Of a DNA stretch of 64,000 nt, positions 8,022 through 60,003 are shown one piece after another (the stretch's first letter is position 1; every line of letters starts with the position of its first letter). This DNA comes from Armatimonadota bacterium. GTDB taxonomy: Bacteria; Armatimonadota; Fimbriimonadia; Fimbriimonadales; Fimbriimonadaceae. The notes below the pieces were generated by a model. The model ran no database searches. It was given only the letters and a program-made list of their open reading frames with translations, and was not told the DNA's origin. The position numbers and the translations under genes are program-made. The stretch is taken from contig JAIUNY010000008.1 in the NCBI GenBank assembly GCA_020161505.1, forward strand, positions 62,001 through 126,000, given 5' to 3'.

Positions 8022-9242
8022 TCACGAATGCCACAGATGACTCCCGGCCGCCACGTCCTCTTCCCAGGCCTGAGCCACCGCCGCCGCAACAATCGGCACC
8101 ACCGACCGATCCAGCGGATCAGGGATCACCATGTCAACCCTCGGATCAGACAAACATGCCGAGAGCGCATGGGCGGCTGAGATCTTCATGTGCTCCGTAA
8201 TCCGACTCGCTCCAGCGTCAAGAGCCCCTCGGAAAATCCCCGGAAATGCCAAAACATTGTTGACCTGATTCGGAAAATCGCTCCGACCCGTACAAACCAC
8301 CGAAGCGCCACCCAATCGCGCTTCATCAGGAAGGATCTCCGGATCAGGGTTCGCGAGCGCAAAGACGATCGGAGCAGCATTCATCAACCGGATGTCGGCA
8401 GCCGTCAAAAGATTCGCCACCGAAACTCCGATGAACACATCCGCGCCCACCAGAGCGTCTCGCAAAGACCCGCTTCGATCAGACCGATTCGTGAAGCTCA
8501 AGAGCGCGCGCTTCTCATCGTTGAGTTTGTCGAATCGCCCGCGACTGATGATCCCTTGGCTGTCGCACATCAGGATCTCCTTCACAGGAATGCACACCGT
8601 CGGATCCTGACCGATGCAGCGCAAGAGCTTCGCAATGCTCGTCCCCGCCGCGCCCGCTCCGTTCAGCACCACGGTCAAATCGTCCGGCTCTTTCCCCGTG
8701 AGCTTGCAGGCGTTCAAGAGGGCCGCGAGCACGACAATCGCCGTCCCATGCTGGTCATCATGGAACACGGGAATACCGATCGCCTGCAACGCGCGCTCGA
8801 TGGCAAAGCACTGAGGGGCCGCAATATCCTCCAGATTAATCCCACCAAAAGTCGGCGCAATCGCCTTCACCGTCGCGATGATCTCCTCCGGCTTCTGCGT
8901 TCCTAGAACGATGGGAACTCCATCAATGCCGGCAAACTCCTTGAACAGAGCCGCCTTCCCTTCCATGACCGGGAGAGCCCCATAAGGGCCGATATTGCCC
9001 AGCCCAAGCACCGCCGAACCATCGCTGACAATCGCCACGCTGTTCCCTTTGAAGCTCATCGCCATCGCCGCCTCGGGATGCGCCGCCAGATGCTCGCTCA
9101 CTGCCGCAACCCCCGGAGTGTAGGCGAGGCTTAAATCATCCCGCGATTCCAGCCCGACTTTGACCTGGATGCCCAGCTTTCCCCGATGCTCCCGATGCAA
9201 AGCCAGGGATCGTTCGCCGAATGAAGAACCAGTATCGGACAT
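8022..9242 (-). CDS. NAD(P)-dependent malic enzyme
   Basis: 406 residues from the ATG at 9242; an upstream TTG at 9272 would overlap the preceding stop. It oxidatively decarboxylates malate to pyruvate. Typical bacterial small-form features are SLAYTPGVA near residue 45, the NAD-proximal SDGSAVLGLGNIGP, catalytic 'VMEGKAALFKEFAGIDG', metal-binding 'NLEDIAAPQCF' and 'PVFHDDQHGTAIV', and a Rossmann GAGAAG in 'VVLNGAGAAGTSIA'. It lacks the C-terminal phosphotransacetylase domain found in MaeB. It sits 26 bp after the PLP ammonia-lyase gene, suggesting one transcript that feeds pyruvate and 2-oxoacid metabolism. NAD versus NADP preference cannot be read from the sequence. Confidence 0.93.
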   Translation of the reverse strand: MSDTGSSFGERSLALHREHRGKLGIQVKVGLESRDDLSLAYTPGVAAVSEHLAAHPEAAMAMSFKGNSVAIVSDGSAVLGLGNIGPYGALPVMEGKAALFKEFAGIDGVPIVLGTQKPEEIIATVKAIAPTFGGINLEDIAAPQCFAIERALQAIGIPVFHDDQHGTAIVVLAALLNACKLTGKEPDDLTVVLNGAGAAGTSIAKLLRCIGQDPTVCIPVKEILMCDSQGIISRGRFDKLNDEKRALLSFTNRSDRSGSLRDALVGADVFIGVSVANLLTAADIRLMNAAPIVFALANPDPEILPDEARLGGASVVCTGRSDFPNQVNNVLAFPGIFRGALDAGASRITEHMKISAAHALSACLSDPRVDMVIPDPLDRSVVPIVAAAVAQAWEEDVAAGSHLWHS

Positions 9243-9268
9243 GCCGTTCACCTTACCCGCCTGACCTC

Positions 9269-10237
9269 TCAATCAAGCCCCGATCCACCCGTCCAGAGCG
9301 ACGCCAGGCGACTGAGATCCACATTTCCGCCGCTCACCACAACCCCGACTCGCTTGCCACGGACATCCACTTTGCCTTCCCACGCCGCCGCCAGCGAAAG
9401 GCAACCGGTTGGTTCAACGAGAACTTTCATGCGCTCCGCATAAAACTTCGTGCACTCCACGAGCGTGGAATCCGCCACGGTCACCACATCATCGACATGA
9501 GCCTGAATATGCGCGAAAGTCAGGGCACTTGCACTTGGGGTTCTCGCACCATCCGCAATCGTGATCGGATCCTTCACCGTCTCGATCTTCCCAGAGCGGA
9601 ATGATCGAGCAATGTCGTCACCCGCCTCCGGCTCCACGCCAATGACCTGACAAGCTGGCAAGAGAGTCTTGGCCGAGACGGCAGAACCGCTCAGCAATCC
9701 TCCTCCACCCAGGCAGACGAGAAGCATATCGAGTTCGCCACTCTCCAAAATCAACTCCCGAACCGCTGTGCCTGCCCCCGCGATGATATGAGGATGGTCG
9801 TAAGGCGGAACCAGGGTCAACCCCCGTTCCTCCGCCAACCGACTCCCCAGAGCCTCCCGCGTCGTCTCGTCGCGGTCGTACAGAATGACCTCGCCTCCGT
9901 AGCCCTCCGTGGCGGCCCGCTTTACGGCGGGAGCATCATTGGGCATCACCACAACCACGGGCGAGCCGAGGAGTTTTCCCGCCAACGCAAGCGCCTGGGC
10001 ATGGTTCCCGCTCGAATAGGTCAGCACGCCATTTCGCCGCTGATCCTCGGTCAGTTGGAGCATCGCATTCATCGCCCCTCGAAACTTGAACGAACCGGAT
10101 CTCTGGAAGCTCTCAGCCTTCACAAAGAACTGCGCATCGAACTTCGCATTGAGCTGACTCGAGGCGAGCACCGGGGTTTGATGGGCGTAAGGGGCGATGC
10201 GCCGGGCGGCGTCTTCGATGTCGGAAAATTGAACCAT
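9269..10237 (-). CDS. PLP-dependent threonine/serine ammonia-lyase family protein
   Basis: 322 residues, the single-domain fold type II length, without the regulatory ACT domain of IlvA. The PLP lysine lies in SGSFKFRGA near residue 52, cofactor-binding SSGNHAQ near 79, and the glycine loop CLGGGGLLSG near 178. 'HQTPVLASSQLN' at the N-terminus is characteristic of catabolic threonine dehydratase, threo-3-hydroxyaspartate ammonia-lyase and serine racemase. These cannot be separated by reading alone. The likely reaction is deamination of serine or threonine to a 2-oxoacid. It is the first gene of a run with malic enzyme and fhs. A GATACT box lies 10 nt before the ATG. Confidence 0.88.
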   Translation of the reverse strand: MVQFSDIEDAARRIAPYAHQTPVLASSQLNAKFDAQFFVKAESFQRSGSFKFRGAMNAMLQLTEDQRRNGVLTYSSGNHAQALALAGKLLGSPVVVVMPNDAPAVKRAATEGYGGEVILYDRDETTREALGSRLAEERGLTLVPPYDHPHIIAGAGTAVRELILESGELDMLLVCLGGGGLLSGSAVSAKTLLPACQVIGVEPEAGDDIARSFRSGKIETVKDPITIADGARTPSASALTFAHIQAHVDDVVTVADSTLVECTKFYAERMKVLVEPTGCLSLAAAWEGKVDVRGKRVGVVVSGGNVDLSRLASLWTGGSGLD

Positions 10238-10266
10238 CCCGCCCGGCAGTATCCCCTATCGCGAAG

Positions 10267-10425
10267 TCACTCTTCGGCCTGGGTGACCGTACCGTCCGAC
10301 ACACCGGCTTTCTCGTCGGCTTCCGGCGGGGCCTGAGTCGGCGCTCCCGCTCCGCACCCGGCAAGCGAGACGACGAAGGCGAAAGCGAGGGCAATAGCAA
10401 AGGTTCGAGTCAGGAAAGAATTCAT
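10267..10425 (-). CDS. Small lipoprotein, 52 residues
   Basis: The product starts MNSFLTRTFAIALAFAFVVS and reaches a canonical lipobox LAGC near residue 22-25. The short mature part is rich in Ala, Pro, Glu and Asp (QAPPEADEKAGVSDGTV). It is a lipid-anchored, acidic, probably disordered peptide of unknown role. The ATG at 10425 is preceded by a weak GAGAA. It lies between the second PEP-CTERM gene and the ammonia-lyase gene, all on the minus strand. The upstream hairpin probably separates it from the former. Such small entericidin-like lipoproteins are common and poorly conserved. Confidence 0.65.
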   Translation of the reverse strand: MNSFLTRTFAIALAFAFVVSLAGCGAGAPTQAPPEADEKAGVSDGTVTQAEE

Positions 10426-44710: not shown

Positions 44711-47700
44711 CTACAGGCGCTTGACCCGAATGTTTCGGTACATCACCTTGTTTCCATGGTCTTGGAAGACGATATACCCTTCCTTGTTCCGGGCAAAGCC
44801 CGCCATGTCTCGGAACTTGGACGCTTTGATGAGATCCCAGAACTGCGTGGGGTTCATGTCGATCCGCACCAGCCGGACTCCGTTCAGATAGTGCTCCAGG
44901 ATTCCCTTGGAGATCACGATCCGACCTTCGTTCCACTCGCCGACGGGACGGGTGTAGTCATACTCGGCGGCGACCAGGTCGTAGAGCGATCCGGAAGCCT
45001 GCGAGGGCGTGATGATTCCCTCGTGGGAGGCATTGTCGAGCACTTGGTATTCCGGCCCGGTTTCCCAGCTATTGCCCCGATCTTCGCTGCTGCGATAGAT
45101 CACGCCGCTGTTTCCTCCCGGAGTCACTTTCCAAAGGAAGCGCAGATCAAAGTCGGCGTACATCTCCTTCGTTCGGAGGTCGCCTCCTTGCTTGCCAGGA
45201 GTGAAGACCAGGTCTCCTCCTTCGATCCCCCATCCGCTTGGCACCACGTTTTGACGGAAGCCCATGAAGTTACTCAGGTTCGTGCCGTCGAAGAGTGGCT
45301 TGAACCCGTCACGGAACTCGGTAGGAGTCATGACGCCGGAAAGCCGGGATCGAGTCGGGGCAACCTTGCCCTCTGCCTTGGGGAGCTTGTTGAGGGTGTA
45401 CCAGGCTTCGGTGCTCCAGAGCACTTCGCCATCGCCACTTCGCATCGAAGGATGGCAGCGCAGGTAAACCACGGTGCCTTCCTTGAGCCCAGGAACTTCG
45501 AGGAACGCACTCTTGCGATCCTTGCTCACGCTGACGCTCTTCACGGTGAGCGCGGCCTCATCGACCTTCGGCCCGCCGTATTCGACGGTTGGGACGTAGC
45601 GCCAGTGGCTTACGGAATAGTCGAGCGGGAGTTCGCCTTGCTCCGTACCCAGGGGCTCTGTGAAGTTGACCTGCAGACCATTGCTCTTCACCTGAACCGA
45701 GAGCATCTCGAAGGTGGACGCGCCGTTGTAGGTGAGCCGCTGGAGGCCATAGCTGGCCTTGCCGGTTTGACCCCAGTTTCCGCTGGAACCGATTCCACCG
45801 ACATAGATTTCACCCTTGGGCGAGAGCAGGACGCGGTTGATGCCCGCTTCAAGCCCTTGCGTCCAGCGGAAGACGACGCCCTGCGTGACCCCATCGATCC
45901 GCTCAACAAACACGCGCTTCAGTCCACCATGGGTGACGTCGCCATGCGCCATTTGACCCTTGTAGGGGCCCATGGTGAGAGGGATGATTCCGCTCGGACT
46001 GTTGCCGATTTCGTTCTGGGGAAGCCAGACGACCGGGGGATCTTCCTTCTTGTTCTTGGTTCCGACCGGATCTACCGATCGGTTGCCGTAGAACGCGCCC
46101 TCGCGCACGAGCATGATCTTGCTGCTCGGCAACCAGTCGCCCTGATTGTCGCTGATGTAGAGATCACCAAGGGAACCGACGCCAATGCCGTTCGGGGTGC
46201 GAAGGCCGCTGACGATGAACCGGTAGGTGCCGGTTTTGGCGTCGATTTCCACCGTGCGCCCCCGATCCGGATTTTGCGGTGAGGTGCTGGCTCCTCCCGG
46301 ATTGATCGCGGTGGCGAGGTTGCCATAGAACTTGCCGTTGCGATACTCGAGTCCGAACGCGAACTCGTGGAAGTTGCTCGTCACACCCCAGCCATTGGCC
46401 ACGCACCGATAGGTGTCAGTGATGCCATCGCCGTTGTTGTCTACGAGCTCCGTGAGTTCTTGCTTCTGGAGCACGTACGTGCGTCCATTAACGACCTTCA
46501 ATCCCAGAGGTTCGGCGAGGCCTGCGGCAATTCGCGTGACCTTGATCTGTTCGCGCGGGCCGTGAATTCCGCTGAGGCGGTAGACCGCTCCATCGGGATC
46601 CCAGGTGCAGACGAGGAGATCGCCATTCGGGGCGAAATCCATGCCGCCGACCCGAGGTTGGAAGCTATCGGGGCGCACCGTTTCGAGCTTGAAGCTCGGG
46701 TGGACTGCTTCGAGCGGTGATTTATCGCCTGGGCGGGTTCGTTGTTGACCAAAGATCTGCTTCTTACCGGGAGCCGTGACCCGCACCTCGCCTGCTGGGG
46801 TTGTGAAGGCACTGGCCGGAACCAGTTCGAACGAACTACTTCCCTTGCGCCATCGCAAGCGGAGAGCCGCATCGCCTTCATTCTCAAAGTAGTCAATCGC
46901 GATCTTGTTCTCGCCCTTGTTGAGCTTGATCTTGCCGGTTTTGACCGGACTCTCGCCGTGGAGACCATCGTTGTCGATCACGGTCGTGCCGTTGATGACC
47001 AGTTTGGAGCCATCGTCGCTCCCCAGAGAGAACTCGTATTCGCCATCCTCCGGAGCCACGATGAATCCCGTGACCTGAACAAAGAAGTGATCGGTGAAAG
47101 CACCAAATCCATCGTTGCCGAGGTTGAGTTGTGGCACGACCACGCTGTAGTTCGGGGTTTGACCCGGCACGAGACGGGGGAGCTTGTCGAAGGGGCCGCC
47201 GATCCAGTAAAGGCGAAGGCTGAGACCGGGGACGCGCTCGGAGGCGGTGTCTTGCTGGGGAACCGGCTTAGGTTGCGGGTTGTCTTCCATCGGAGAGAAC
47301 ACCACGCCCGAATTCGATTCGCCCTGGCGCTTCCAGAACATGTTGACGCTCGTGGATTGCCCTGCGACCACATCAATTTCGTAGGTCGCCAGGCCGCTGC
47401 CTCCGCGGGTTCGATCCTTCTCACCCGAGATCACATCGGGCATCGCGACAAAGCTCATCCGGCTTTGCAGAGTCCAATCCTTGGGCAGGCCGACGGGCAC
47501 AAAGGTGCGGCTCAGACCGACAAGATCGCCGAGAATGGGGTCGGTCGGAGCATATTCCGGGGTCTCAAACACGGAAGCAAACTTTCCTCCGCCGAGCGGC
47601 ACCTTCCATTCAAAGGTCACCTGATTCTGCTTGATCGTGTAGCCGCCGTAAGTCAAGGAGATCGGGGCATACGCGCCAGTGCCCTTCTTGACGAACCATG

Positions 47701-48034
47701 TCGTCTTGCTCACGTCGTTCTTCACGTAAGGCTTGCCCACGCTCGTCGGCTGAGGGCCGTGAACCGTGGTGTAGACCGCGCCGTCGAACTTGACGCCGCC
47801 TGTCCAGACTTGGTAGAGCCCACAGGCGGTGGCATCGTAAGCCACTGTGAGGTTTTTGTGGAGCATCGCGGTGGCCATGCGCGCGTTCTGATCCAGCACA
47901 GATCGGAACACCCAGATATCCCTCGGGCGCTGGGCGGCCTGGGAAGCCGGAACGGTTAAGGAGAGCGGAGCAATCGTCCCCGGAGCCGACCCCACCGACC
48001 CCAAGGCAAACGACGCGACAAGACTCGCAATCAT
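44711..48034 (-). CDS. Giant exported PA14/sorbosone-dehydrogenase-like/DUF1080 protein
   Basis: 1107 residues from the ATG at 48034. After a signal peptide (IASLVASFALGSVGSAPG) come: a beta-rich domain with many Cys-free strands (~25-260); a PA14 domain ('LRLYWIGGPFDKLP', 'EDGEYEFSLGSDDGSKLVINGTTVIDNDGLH', 'ENKIAIDYFENEGDAALRLRW', ~265-430); a glucose/sorbosone dehydrogenase-like propeller with 'GGMDFAPNGDLLVCTWDPDGAVYRLSG' and 'GIGVGSLGDLYISDNQGDWLP'; and a C-terminal DUF1080 domain ('FKPLFDGTNLSNFMGF', 'NSGVIYRSSEDRGNSWETGPEYQVLDN', 'GRIVISKGILEHYLNGV'). This order is common in Planctomycetota and related bacteria for extracellular glycan binding and degradation. No cytochrome c motif was found. 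A TAGCCT box lies 7 nt before the ATG. Confidence 0.85.
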   Translation of the reverse strand: MIASLVASFALGSVGSAPGTIAPLSLTVPASQAAQRPRDIWVFRSVLDQNARMATAMLHKNLTVAYDATACGLYQVWTGGVKFDGAVYTTVHGPQPTSVGKPYVKNDVSKTTWFVKKGTGAYAPISLTYGGYTIKQNQVTFEWKVPLGGGKFASVFETPEYAPTDPILGDLVGLSRTFVPVGLPKDWTLQSRMSFVAMPDVISGEKDRTRGGSGLATYEIDVVAGQSTSVNMFWKRQGESNSGVVFSPMEDNPQPKPVPQQDTASERVPGLSLRLYWIGGPFDKLPRLVPGQTPNYSVVVPQLNLGNDGFGAFTDHFFVQVTGFIVAPEDGEYEFSLGSDDGSKLVINGTTVIDNDGLHGESPVKTGKIKLNKGENKIAIDYFENEGDAALRLRWRKGSSSFELVPASAFTTPAGEVRVTAPGKKQIFGQQRTRPGDKSPLEAVHPSFKLETVRPDSFQPRVGGMDFAPNGDLLVCTWDPDGAVYRLSGIHGPREQIKVTRIAAGLAEPLGLKVVNGRTYVLQKQELTELVDNNGDGITDTYRCVANGWGVTSNFHEFAFGLEYRNGKFYGNLATAINPGGASTSPQNPDRGRTVEIDAKTGTYRFIVSGLRTPNGIGVGSLGDLYISDNQGDWLPSSKIMLVREGAFYGNRSVDPVGTKNKKEDPPVVWLPQNEIGNSPSGIIPLTMGPYKGQMAHGDVTHGGLKRVFVERIDGVTQGVVFRWTQGLEAGINRVLLSPKGEIYVGGIGSSGNWGQTGKASYGLQRLTYNGASTFEMLSVQVKSNGLQVNFTEPLGTEQGELPLDYSVSHWRYVPTVEYGGPKVDEAALTVKSVSVSKDRKSAFLEVPGLKEGTVVYLRCHPSMRSGDGEVLWSTEAWYTLNKLPKAEGKVAPTRSRLSGVMTPTEFRDGFKPLFDGTNLSNFMGFRQNVVPSGWGIEGGDLVFTPGKQGGDLRTKEMYADFDLRFLWKVTPGGNSGVIYRSSEDRGNSWETGPEYQVLDNASHEGIITPSQASGSLYDLVAAEYDYTRPVGEWNEGRIVISKGILEHYLNGVRLVRIDMNPTQFWDLIKASKFRDMAGFARNKEGYIVFQDHGNKVMYRNIRVKRL

Positions 48035-48077
48035 GCGTGCAAGGCTACCCCTGGATTTACTGGGAATTGCCCCTTTT

Positions 48078-48093
48078 TGGCACGATTCTTGCA
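48078..48093 (+). promoter_or_regulatory. Sigma54 (RpoN) promoter
   Basis: TGGCACG-ATTC-TTGCA: both the GG and GC elements and the 10-nt distance between them match the RpoN -24/-12 consensus fully. It points to the gene starting at 48199; transcription would start near 48104. This is the clearest sigma54-type promoter in the window. Confidence 0.82.
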
Positions 48094-48163
48094 CGGCTTC
48101 CTCTCCAGAAATCCTGGAAGTTTTGCCCGGGAGGAACCACCAAAAACGTCCAAAAACAGATCA

Positions 48164-48193
48164 TACGAGGCACTGGACCTCGTACAGGAGGGG
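48164..48193 (+). promoter_or_regulatory. Leader hairpin and CsrA-like GGA sites before the ribosome binding site
   Basis: TACGAGG (48164-48170) and CCTCGTA (48178-48184) form a perfect 7-bp hairpin whose loop is CACTGGA. Immediately after it, the ribosome binding site lies in ACAGGAGGGG. A GGA in a hairpin loop plus a second overlapping the Shine-Dalgarno is the classical CsrA/RsmA binding arrangement. Further GGA copies lie at about 48115-48133. This is inferred; CsrA itself is not in the window. Confidence 0.5.
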
Positions 48194-48198
48194 CACCA

Positions 48199-48954
48199 AT
48201 GATGGATCCGAGACTTAACTCGAACAATAAAGCAGGAAGCGAATACCACCTTTCACCCCAACCCGTGTCGCCGGAACCACCCCCGGAGACGCGTCAAGTC
48301 ACGTCAACTTCATCCACCCGTAACGAAACCGCGCAACAGCGTCCTGGACAGAACGCTCAGCAGCTCAGCGAACGACTCAAAGCATCGGCCGTGAAGGTCG
48401 AGACCGCCCGAGCCGCCTTGGGCCAGATGTCGGATCTCGTCGACAGTGTGATCGAAGGGATGCGACGGAATGCCGCGTCGTCTTCTGGTGGAAGAGCCAA
48501 TGAACGGCTCATGGAATCCGCCTTCGCGACGGCCCAAGACATCGTTGAGCATGCCCGCTCCGATGGTCAATATCTCCTTGGCCCGGGGCGGGCGGCCCCG
48601 TACCGGAGCCAGGCCGTCGATGGCAAGACTCTCGCCGCACTGGGAGCCTATCAGAGGAATCAGAGTGCCTACGGCAGCTCCGCGGAGCAAGCCGATCCCC
48701 CGCTGGTTCGACACGCGCTGCAGTCCACTCGCGCTTTTGTCTCTGGCCCTGAAGGGGTTTTGGAGACTCTGCGCCAGATGGCCGAACATGGCCCGCACGA
48801 GGGCCCCGGTGCTGAGAAGGCGCTGCACGAAGCCAAGCAGACTCTGAAAGGCCTCACGAATATGCTCGGCGATGCCCGGGTACGGGAGATCGATCAGCCG
48901 CTTCAAGAGATGCAGCAGCCCCGAGGCACGACGCCGTTTGACCTCAAGATCTGA
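48199..48954 (+). CDS. Putative flagellin/FlgL-like or secreted filament-associated protein
   Basis: 251 residues from the ATG at 48199, 5 nt after AGGAGGGG; an ATG at 48202 is an equal alternative. No signal peptide or membrane helix. The N-terminal ~50 residues are Pro/Gln/Ser-rich and probably disordered. Residues ~60-140 are helical: 'AQQLSERLKASAVKVETARAALGQMSDLVDSVIEGM' (split here), then '...DIVEHARSDGQYLLGPG'. This resembles the D1 helices of flagellin/FlgL ('..AL..M.DLV..V......A......NGQYLL') but is weak. A second helical region ends in DLKI. The sigma54 promoter and CsrA-like leader favour a flagellar or pilus-related role. Otherwise I do not recognise it. Its 3' end overlaps coaX (convergent) by 11 bp. 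Confidence 0.5.
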   Translation: MMDPRLNSNNKAGSEYHLSPQPVSPEPPPETRQVTSTSSTRNETAQQRPGQNAQQLSERLKASAVKVETARAALGQMSDLVDSVIEGMRRNAASSSGGRANERLMESAFATAQDIVEHARSDGQYLLGPGRAAPYRSQAVDGKTLAALGAYQRNQSAYGSSAEQADPPLVRHALQSTRAFVSGPEGVLETLRQMAEHGPHEGPGAEKALHEAKQTLKGLTNMLGDARVREIDQPLQEMQQPRGTTPFDLKI

Positions 48955-59847: not shown

Positions 59848-59880
59848 CTCGCGGGAGACCCGTGAGATGCGGTGCACTTG

Positions 59881-59974
59881 ATCGCATTCCCTACGCCAGC
59901 ATGACCTGGATCAGGTTCGAGGGGATCGTGCGGTCCATTCCGCATCATCTCAGCCCATTCGGGCACCCCCAGCG
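59881..59974 (-). promoter_or_regulatory. TPP riboswitch (THI element)
   Basis: On the minus strand the sequence carries the canonical TPP aptamer: GGGGGTGC then a GCCC/GGGC hairpin, CTGAGAT, then a P3-type hairpin (GATGCGG/CCGCAC), CCTGATCCAGGTCATGCTGG and CGTAGGGA. These are the invariant pyrimidine- and diphosphate-sensing parts, with none missing. Such RNAs control thiamine synthesis or transport genes when bound by thiamin diphosphate. Here the first gene downstream is the prepilin-like gene at 59788. No thi gene was found within the window. Confidence 0.92.
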
Positions 59975-60003
59975 AGCAGGCTCGTCGCTTGAGCTCTGAC
60001 CTT

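Follow-up and report, generated by a model that had tools for sequence, protein, structure and literature searches.

A predicted flagellin D1-like protein behind a putative sigma54 promoter in the family Fimbriimonadaceae (Armatimonadota)

Described flagellin relatives and the P0001 locus

Flagellin polymerises via its D0 domain, and the final residues of CD0 bind FliS (PMC5466977). HP1076 of Helicobacter pylori has a D1 fold, binds the face of FliS that is used by D1 and competes with flagellin; it is non-polymerising and RpoN-dependent (PMC7248283). In Campylobacter jejuni, an rpoN mutant expresses the orthologue of HP1076, Cj1650, at a reduced level (PMC3353397). For HP1076 against 5GY2, a DALI Z of 11.8 has been reported. 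Earlier work described HP1076 as a protein of H. pylori and its relatives only; it is little understood, since an hp1076-null strain had no defect in motility. FlgR of H. pylori has no DNA-binding domain and works without DNA binding (PMC3930126). Among the secreted non-structural flagellins, FlaC of Campylobacter keeps D0 and D1 (PMC5466977), and Vibrio FlaE and FlaF are close to full flagellins (53–75% identity among six proteins).

The gene considered here lies in a 64-kb window (G000:C30:62001–126000), the whole stretch of DNA that was analysed, from a genome of 3.14 Mb (99.9% complete). Its product, P0001, resembles HP1076 in a helical D1 fold without D0, which is predicted in this case and also has 5GY2 as its best match. 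Expression of HP1076 depends on sigma54, a sigma54 promoter is predicted for the P0001 gene, and FliS is encoded in the same genome in both cases. In contrast to HP1076, P0001 belongs to a different phylum, possesses a longer disordered N-terminus and is part of a family in which only some members have a sigma54 promoter; PDB searches detected no sequence relation between the two proteins. FliS binding is known for HP1076, whereas for P0001 it would follow by analogy. In its predicted fold and promoter, P0001 would thus work like HP1076, but it is not assigned to the HP1076 family. With FlaC and FlaE/FlaF it would share the character of a flagellin relative outside the filament, although it is predicted to retain D1 only. 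A second family with a sigma54 promoter and D1 alone in a distant phylum would turn the oddity of HP1076 into a comparative question, namely which partner recognises D1 and why a D1 mimic is paired with sigma54. It also supplies a testable role for a gene without a Pfam or NCBIfam family. The features of the locus are compiled in Table 1.

Table 1. Features of the P0001 gene and its upstream region (positions in the window)
Feature	Position	Strand	Basis or remark
Sigma54 (RpoN) promoter, TGGCACGATTCTTGCA	48078–48093	+	pattern TGGCAC-N5-TTGCA; zero mismatches
−24 element TGGCAC	48078–48083	+	sequence match
−12 element TTGCA	48089–48093	+	sequence match
Predicted 5′ leader	48104–48198	+	start inferred ~12 nt past the −12 element
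7-bp hairpin TACGAGG-CACTGGA-CCTCGTA, GGA in loop	48164–48184	+	candidate CsrA site
Shine–Dalgarno sequence AGGAGGGG	48186–48193	+	sequence
Flagellin-D1-like protein P0001, 251 aa, no D0	48199–48954	+	new family
Residues 1–48, disordered, poorly conserved N-terminus replacing flagellin ND0	48199–48342	+	pLDDT <50; alignment
Residues 49–124: long helix, second helix, short strand, matching flagellin ND1; conserved motifs Q..DL and N.RL..SA	48343–48570	+	
Residues 168–238, three helices matching CD1/HAP D1	48700–48912	+	model, structural alignment
C-terminal FDLKI	48937–48951	+	Asp 4 residues from the end invariant (19/19 aligned members)

The sigma54 promoter and the sigma54 machinery

The recognition of sigma54 promoters was based on GG at −24, GC at −12, exact spacing and closeness to TGGCAC-N5-TTGCW, all of which are found at 48078–48093. 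The site begins 121 nt upstream of the ATG at 48199, within a gap of 164 nt that separates divergent genes, and is the sole sigma54 site without mismatches in the window. The divergent neighbour is a PA14/3-keto-disaccharide hydrolase gene with a likely start at 48034 (44711–48034, − strand), whose product of ~1107 aa combines a PA14 domain with a C-terminal 3-keto-disaccharide hydrolase (DUF1080) domain. On its other side, the P0001 gene is convergent with the gene for a type III pantothenate kinase, with which it overlaps by 11 nt. An in-frame GTG at 48037 was dropped as a start codon, because it precedes the promoter and the start conserved in the family is the ATG after the Shine–Dalgarno sequence.

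By itself, the sigma54 consensus is not above chance genome-wide: four exact matches were found in the 3.14 Mb, compared to five for the reversed pattern. The other three matches were rejected as poorly placed; they are one within a predicted ORF, one facing a gene of opposite orientation and one ~360 nt upstream of a ribosomal-protein-like gene. One of the exact matches, at L127:6498–6513 (G000:C14:33497–33512, + strand), is flanked by two ORFs of opposite direction and has no evident gene downstream; it represents either a chance occurrence or an unannotated small RNA.

The promoter upstream of P0001, predicted from sequence, is accepted as real because of its position and conservation, not because of the consensus match. 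Sigma54-like sites (up to two mismatches allowed) were identified at a similar distance in three homologues from two other genera: TGGCACGCTTTCTGCA at −119 in G063, TGGCACGCTTTTTGCC at −124 in G052 (counted from the ATG of MEIHSGRR) and TGGCACGGTTTGTGCC at −124 in G053. The chance of three such sites among 20 homologues within a span of 20 nt, calculated from the local site rate, is P ~1.5e-5, a value that overstates independence since G052 and G053 belong to one genus. The full-consensus RpoN promoter proposed in an earlier note on this DNA is present as described, and its position is kept in these homologues. The upstream regions of 16 homologues displayed no clear sigma54 site. Sigma28-like sites upstream of other homologues were weak and scattered and were not adopted.

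The genome encodes rpoN and csrA, the two genes on whose presence the earlier note had made its reading depend. Its flagellar set comprises csrA, fliW, fliS, flgL and three flagellin genes; fliW and csrA are part of an operon flgK-flgL-fliW-csrA, in which csrA lies downstream of the other three genes. A single clear sigma54 activator was found, consisting of a receiver and a GAFTGA-containing AAA+ domain, with the chain stopping after the AAA lid. Neither an HTH nor a frameshift that could supply one was detected, and the protein thus resembles H. pylori FlgR, which is likewise devoid of a DNA-binding domain. The activator has a length of 399 aa and adjoins a GAF/PAS histidine kinase (L123:7961–9160 and 9184–10353; G000:C29, about 114–116 kb). 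No good sigma54 site was seen at the flagellar operons examined in this genome, and these operons therefore do not bear out a sigma54 regulon of flagellar genes.

Predicted fold and distribution of the P0001 family

No Pfam domain above the cut-off and no NCBIfam match was obtained for the P0001 ORF, in agreement with the earlier statement that the protein has no recognised domain. Flagellin_N and related Pfam models did not match any of 19 family members at E values up to 1. Weak Pfam matches to P5CR_dimer, apolipoprotein and YscX stayed below the cut-off, occurred in one member each and were discarded, as was the helical noise (keratin, gp86, GARP) that was all the PDB sequence searches returned; flagellin was not matched and HP1076 entries were not listed in these searches. 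Sequence alone would not establish homology to flagellin. A comparison of the family profile with the flagellins of the order aligned residues 63–134 of P0001 to residues 71–146 (ND1), and among 100 single-column shuffles none matched as well, whereas among 500 block shuffles five did. A four-row alignment of the family yielded five related loci.

The structure of P0001 was predicted with AlphaFold2 from an input of P0001 and four relatives. Confident helices cover residues 49–91, 97–118, 168–182, 187–197, and 202–238, and the stretches 1–48 and 131–163 are disordered. Foldseek by itself gave no match for the model at E <0.001, and a search of a viral structure library yielded none at E ≤0.001. 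After re-alignment of the model to PDB chains, the first 19 rows were flagellin and FlgL. The best match was 5gy2 (Z 14.1, 149 residues, 2.3 Å); FlgL (5ziy) reached Z 13.2 over 165 residues at 3.7 Å, and the first designed helical bundle had Z 12.2, against 14.1 for the best flagellin. In a second AlphaFold model, of a member with 33% identity, the structural elements follow one another as in the first and the top families are unchanged (Z 13.0), but the margin to the designed bundles is narrower (Z 12.2). The best 50 matches in each of the two structural comparisons include no HP1076 entry, but this does not show that such a match is absent. The register of the profile match appears to agree with the structural one, judged by residue numbers and once it is taken into account that the local flagellin is two residues longer at its N-terminus.

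The models support a flagellin/FlgL D1 domain fold for P0001, and the resemblance of its helices to flagellin D1 noticed earlier is borne out by both of them and, more weakly, by the profile comparison. Like flagellin (FliC/Hag) and FlgL (HAP3), P0001 is predicted to contain the D1 core with the helices in the same order. Unlike them, it has neither half of D0, whose places are taken by the disordered N-terminus and a short tail (the chain terminates directly after CD1), no Flagellin_N match and a location outside a flagellar operon, and the genome additionally encodes flagellins and FlgL of its own, distinct from P0001. As modelled, P0001 is consequently a D1 core only and neither a flagellin nor an FlgL proper, and the earlier designation as flagellin/FlgL-like applies to the predicted D1 fold but not to D0 or to Pfam family. 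We infer that the fold reflects descent from flagellin or a hook-associated protein.

Convergence would account for the D1 likeness in another way: P0001 would be a helical bundle unrelated to flagellin, tied by its sigma54 promoter to some other function. The scores of the designed bundles, the lack of a Pfam flagellin match in all 19 members and the absence of flagellar neighbours fit this explanation. However, profile and structural matches share their register, flagellin and FlgL come out on top for two members that are only 33% identical, FlgK, flagellin and FlgL score above all unrelated families available in the profile comparison (four only), and the family is confined to flagellin-bearing genomes. 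We consider convergence unlikely.

Relatives of P0001 were found in 21 genomes from seven genera, always as one copy and always within its own GTDB family, Fimbriimonadaceae; among 291 genomes of the phylum Armatimonadota, none was detected outside this family. By these searches, the P0001 family is regarded as new. It is present in 21 of 98 flagellin-bearing and in 0 of 15 flagellin-negative genomes of the order (P 0.036, kinship ignored), so that all 21 genomes with a P0001 homologue bear flagellin. Between three close pairs of homologues, dN/dS was 0.02–0.07, indicating purifying selection on the gene where tested. In 19 of 19 aligned members, an aspartate is found at a distance of exactly four residues from the C-terminal end, although the remainder of the tail is variable, and it looks like a docking motif; 17 of the 19 are free of cysteine. 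The neighbours of the homologues vary: much of the genus carries mutS and a glycosyltransferase-like gene there, and different genes are found elsewhere. Flagellar genes were not found beside the P0001 gene or its homologues.

Proposed role and the 5′ leader

Our best reading, to which we assign a little less than an even chance, is that of a sigma54-timed, non-polymerising D1 mimic that acts on FliS or flagellin traffic in the manner of HP1076. The gene would be transcribed by sigma54 RNA polymerase, probably triggered by the one clear NtrC-type activator without a DNA-binding domain, and would yield a soluble protein that corresponds to the flagellin/FlgL D1 core minus the D0 helices, which polymerise and are gripped by FliS. 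As both D0 halves are absent, P0001 should be unable to form filaments or to bind FliS as D0 does. The D1 mimic may instead dock on FliS or on another partner that recognises D1, for example FliW or flagellin, and thereby tune the chaperoning or export of flagellin. We infer the FliS binding, the identity of the acting activator and any effect on assembly. This reading is favoured by the promoter distance kept in four homologues of three genera (including P0001), the purifying selection, the restriction to flagellin-bearing genomes, the presence of rpoN, the activator without HTH, csrA, fliW, fliS, flgL and flagellin genes in the genome, the two models with flagellin and FlgL D1 as nearest solved structures, the profile match in structural register and the precedent of HP1076/Cj1650. 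The missing Pfam and PDB flagellin sequence matches, the lack of flagellar neighbours, the 16 homologues without a clear site, the flagellar operons without a good sigma54 site, the designed bundles that score close behind the flagellins and the hp1076-null mutant without a motility defect count against it.

Alternatively, P0001 could be a secreted, non-structural flagellin-like protein that uses its disordered N-terminus as a signal for flagellar type III export and acts extracellularly or on the filament surface like FlaC and FlaE/FlaF. A predicted flagellin-like D1 fold, a disordered and hydrophilic N-terminus, the rarity of cysteine (17/19 members without it) and the existence of secreted flagellin relatives are consistent with this. 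These precedents, however, keep D0 and depend on the binding of FliS to the C-terminal D0, whereas P0001 lacks both D0 halves, and its N-terminus is poorly conserved, leaving the export signal putative. Secretion seems rather unlikely to us.

Under the preferred reading of a FliS- or flagellin-directed mimic, sigma54-controlled, D1-only proteins of this kind might have arisen in two phyla (HP1076 in Campylobacterota and the P0001 family in Armatimonadota), each together with an activator without a DNA-binding domain. We regard this as doubtful; if true, it would suggest that the regulation of flagella includes a general step that has so far gone unrecognised.

The leader of the hag gene of Bacillus subtilis is controlled by CsrA. 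Like it, the predicted P0001 leader has a hairpin with GGA in the loop upstream of a Shine–Dalgarno sequence that contains GGA (AGGAGG core at 48186–48191), but it differs in its weak statistics, the lack of conservation in homologues and the sigma54 promoter. With strict Watson–Crick pairing, the hairpin ranks first among the GGA-loop stems of 40 window genes. A stem of 7 bp was, however, reached by 3.75% of dinucleotide shuffles (P 0.04), and with G-U pairs allowed, 6 of the 40 genes have such a stem. The stability of the whole leader is ordinary (z −0.28). None of the three sigma54-driven homologues keeps the hairpin, and the leaders of the three flagellin genes of the genome contain none of this kind. 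The GGA within the Shine–Dalgarno sequence is trivial. Of the CsrA-type leader proposed in the earlier note, the hairpin, the GGA in the Shine–Dalgarno sequence and the presence of csrA stand, whereas the statistics are weak and conservation is missing; CsrA control of the leader is possible but unproven, and offered as a suggestion. The promoter is the best supported element, followed by the protein fold and finally the leader, so the earlier preference for promoter and leader over the protein holds for the promoter only.

A further alternative, suggested by the leader idea of the earlier note, is that P0001 might serve as a decoy in the FliW–CsrA–flagellin switch, with the D1 mimic binding FliW and freeing CsrA and its own leader being under CsrA control. 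The joint location of fliW and csrA in the flgK-flgL-fliW-csrA operon and the two GGA motifs would suit such a role. We deem it quite improbable in view of the statistically weak, non-conserved hairpin and of C. jejuni, where the non-structural flagellin FlaC is not bound by FliW (PMC5466977). Elsewhere in the window, a TPP riboswitch at 59870–59980 (− strand) is the sole Rfam match above threshold.
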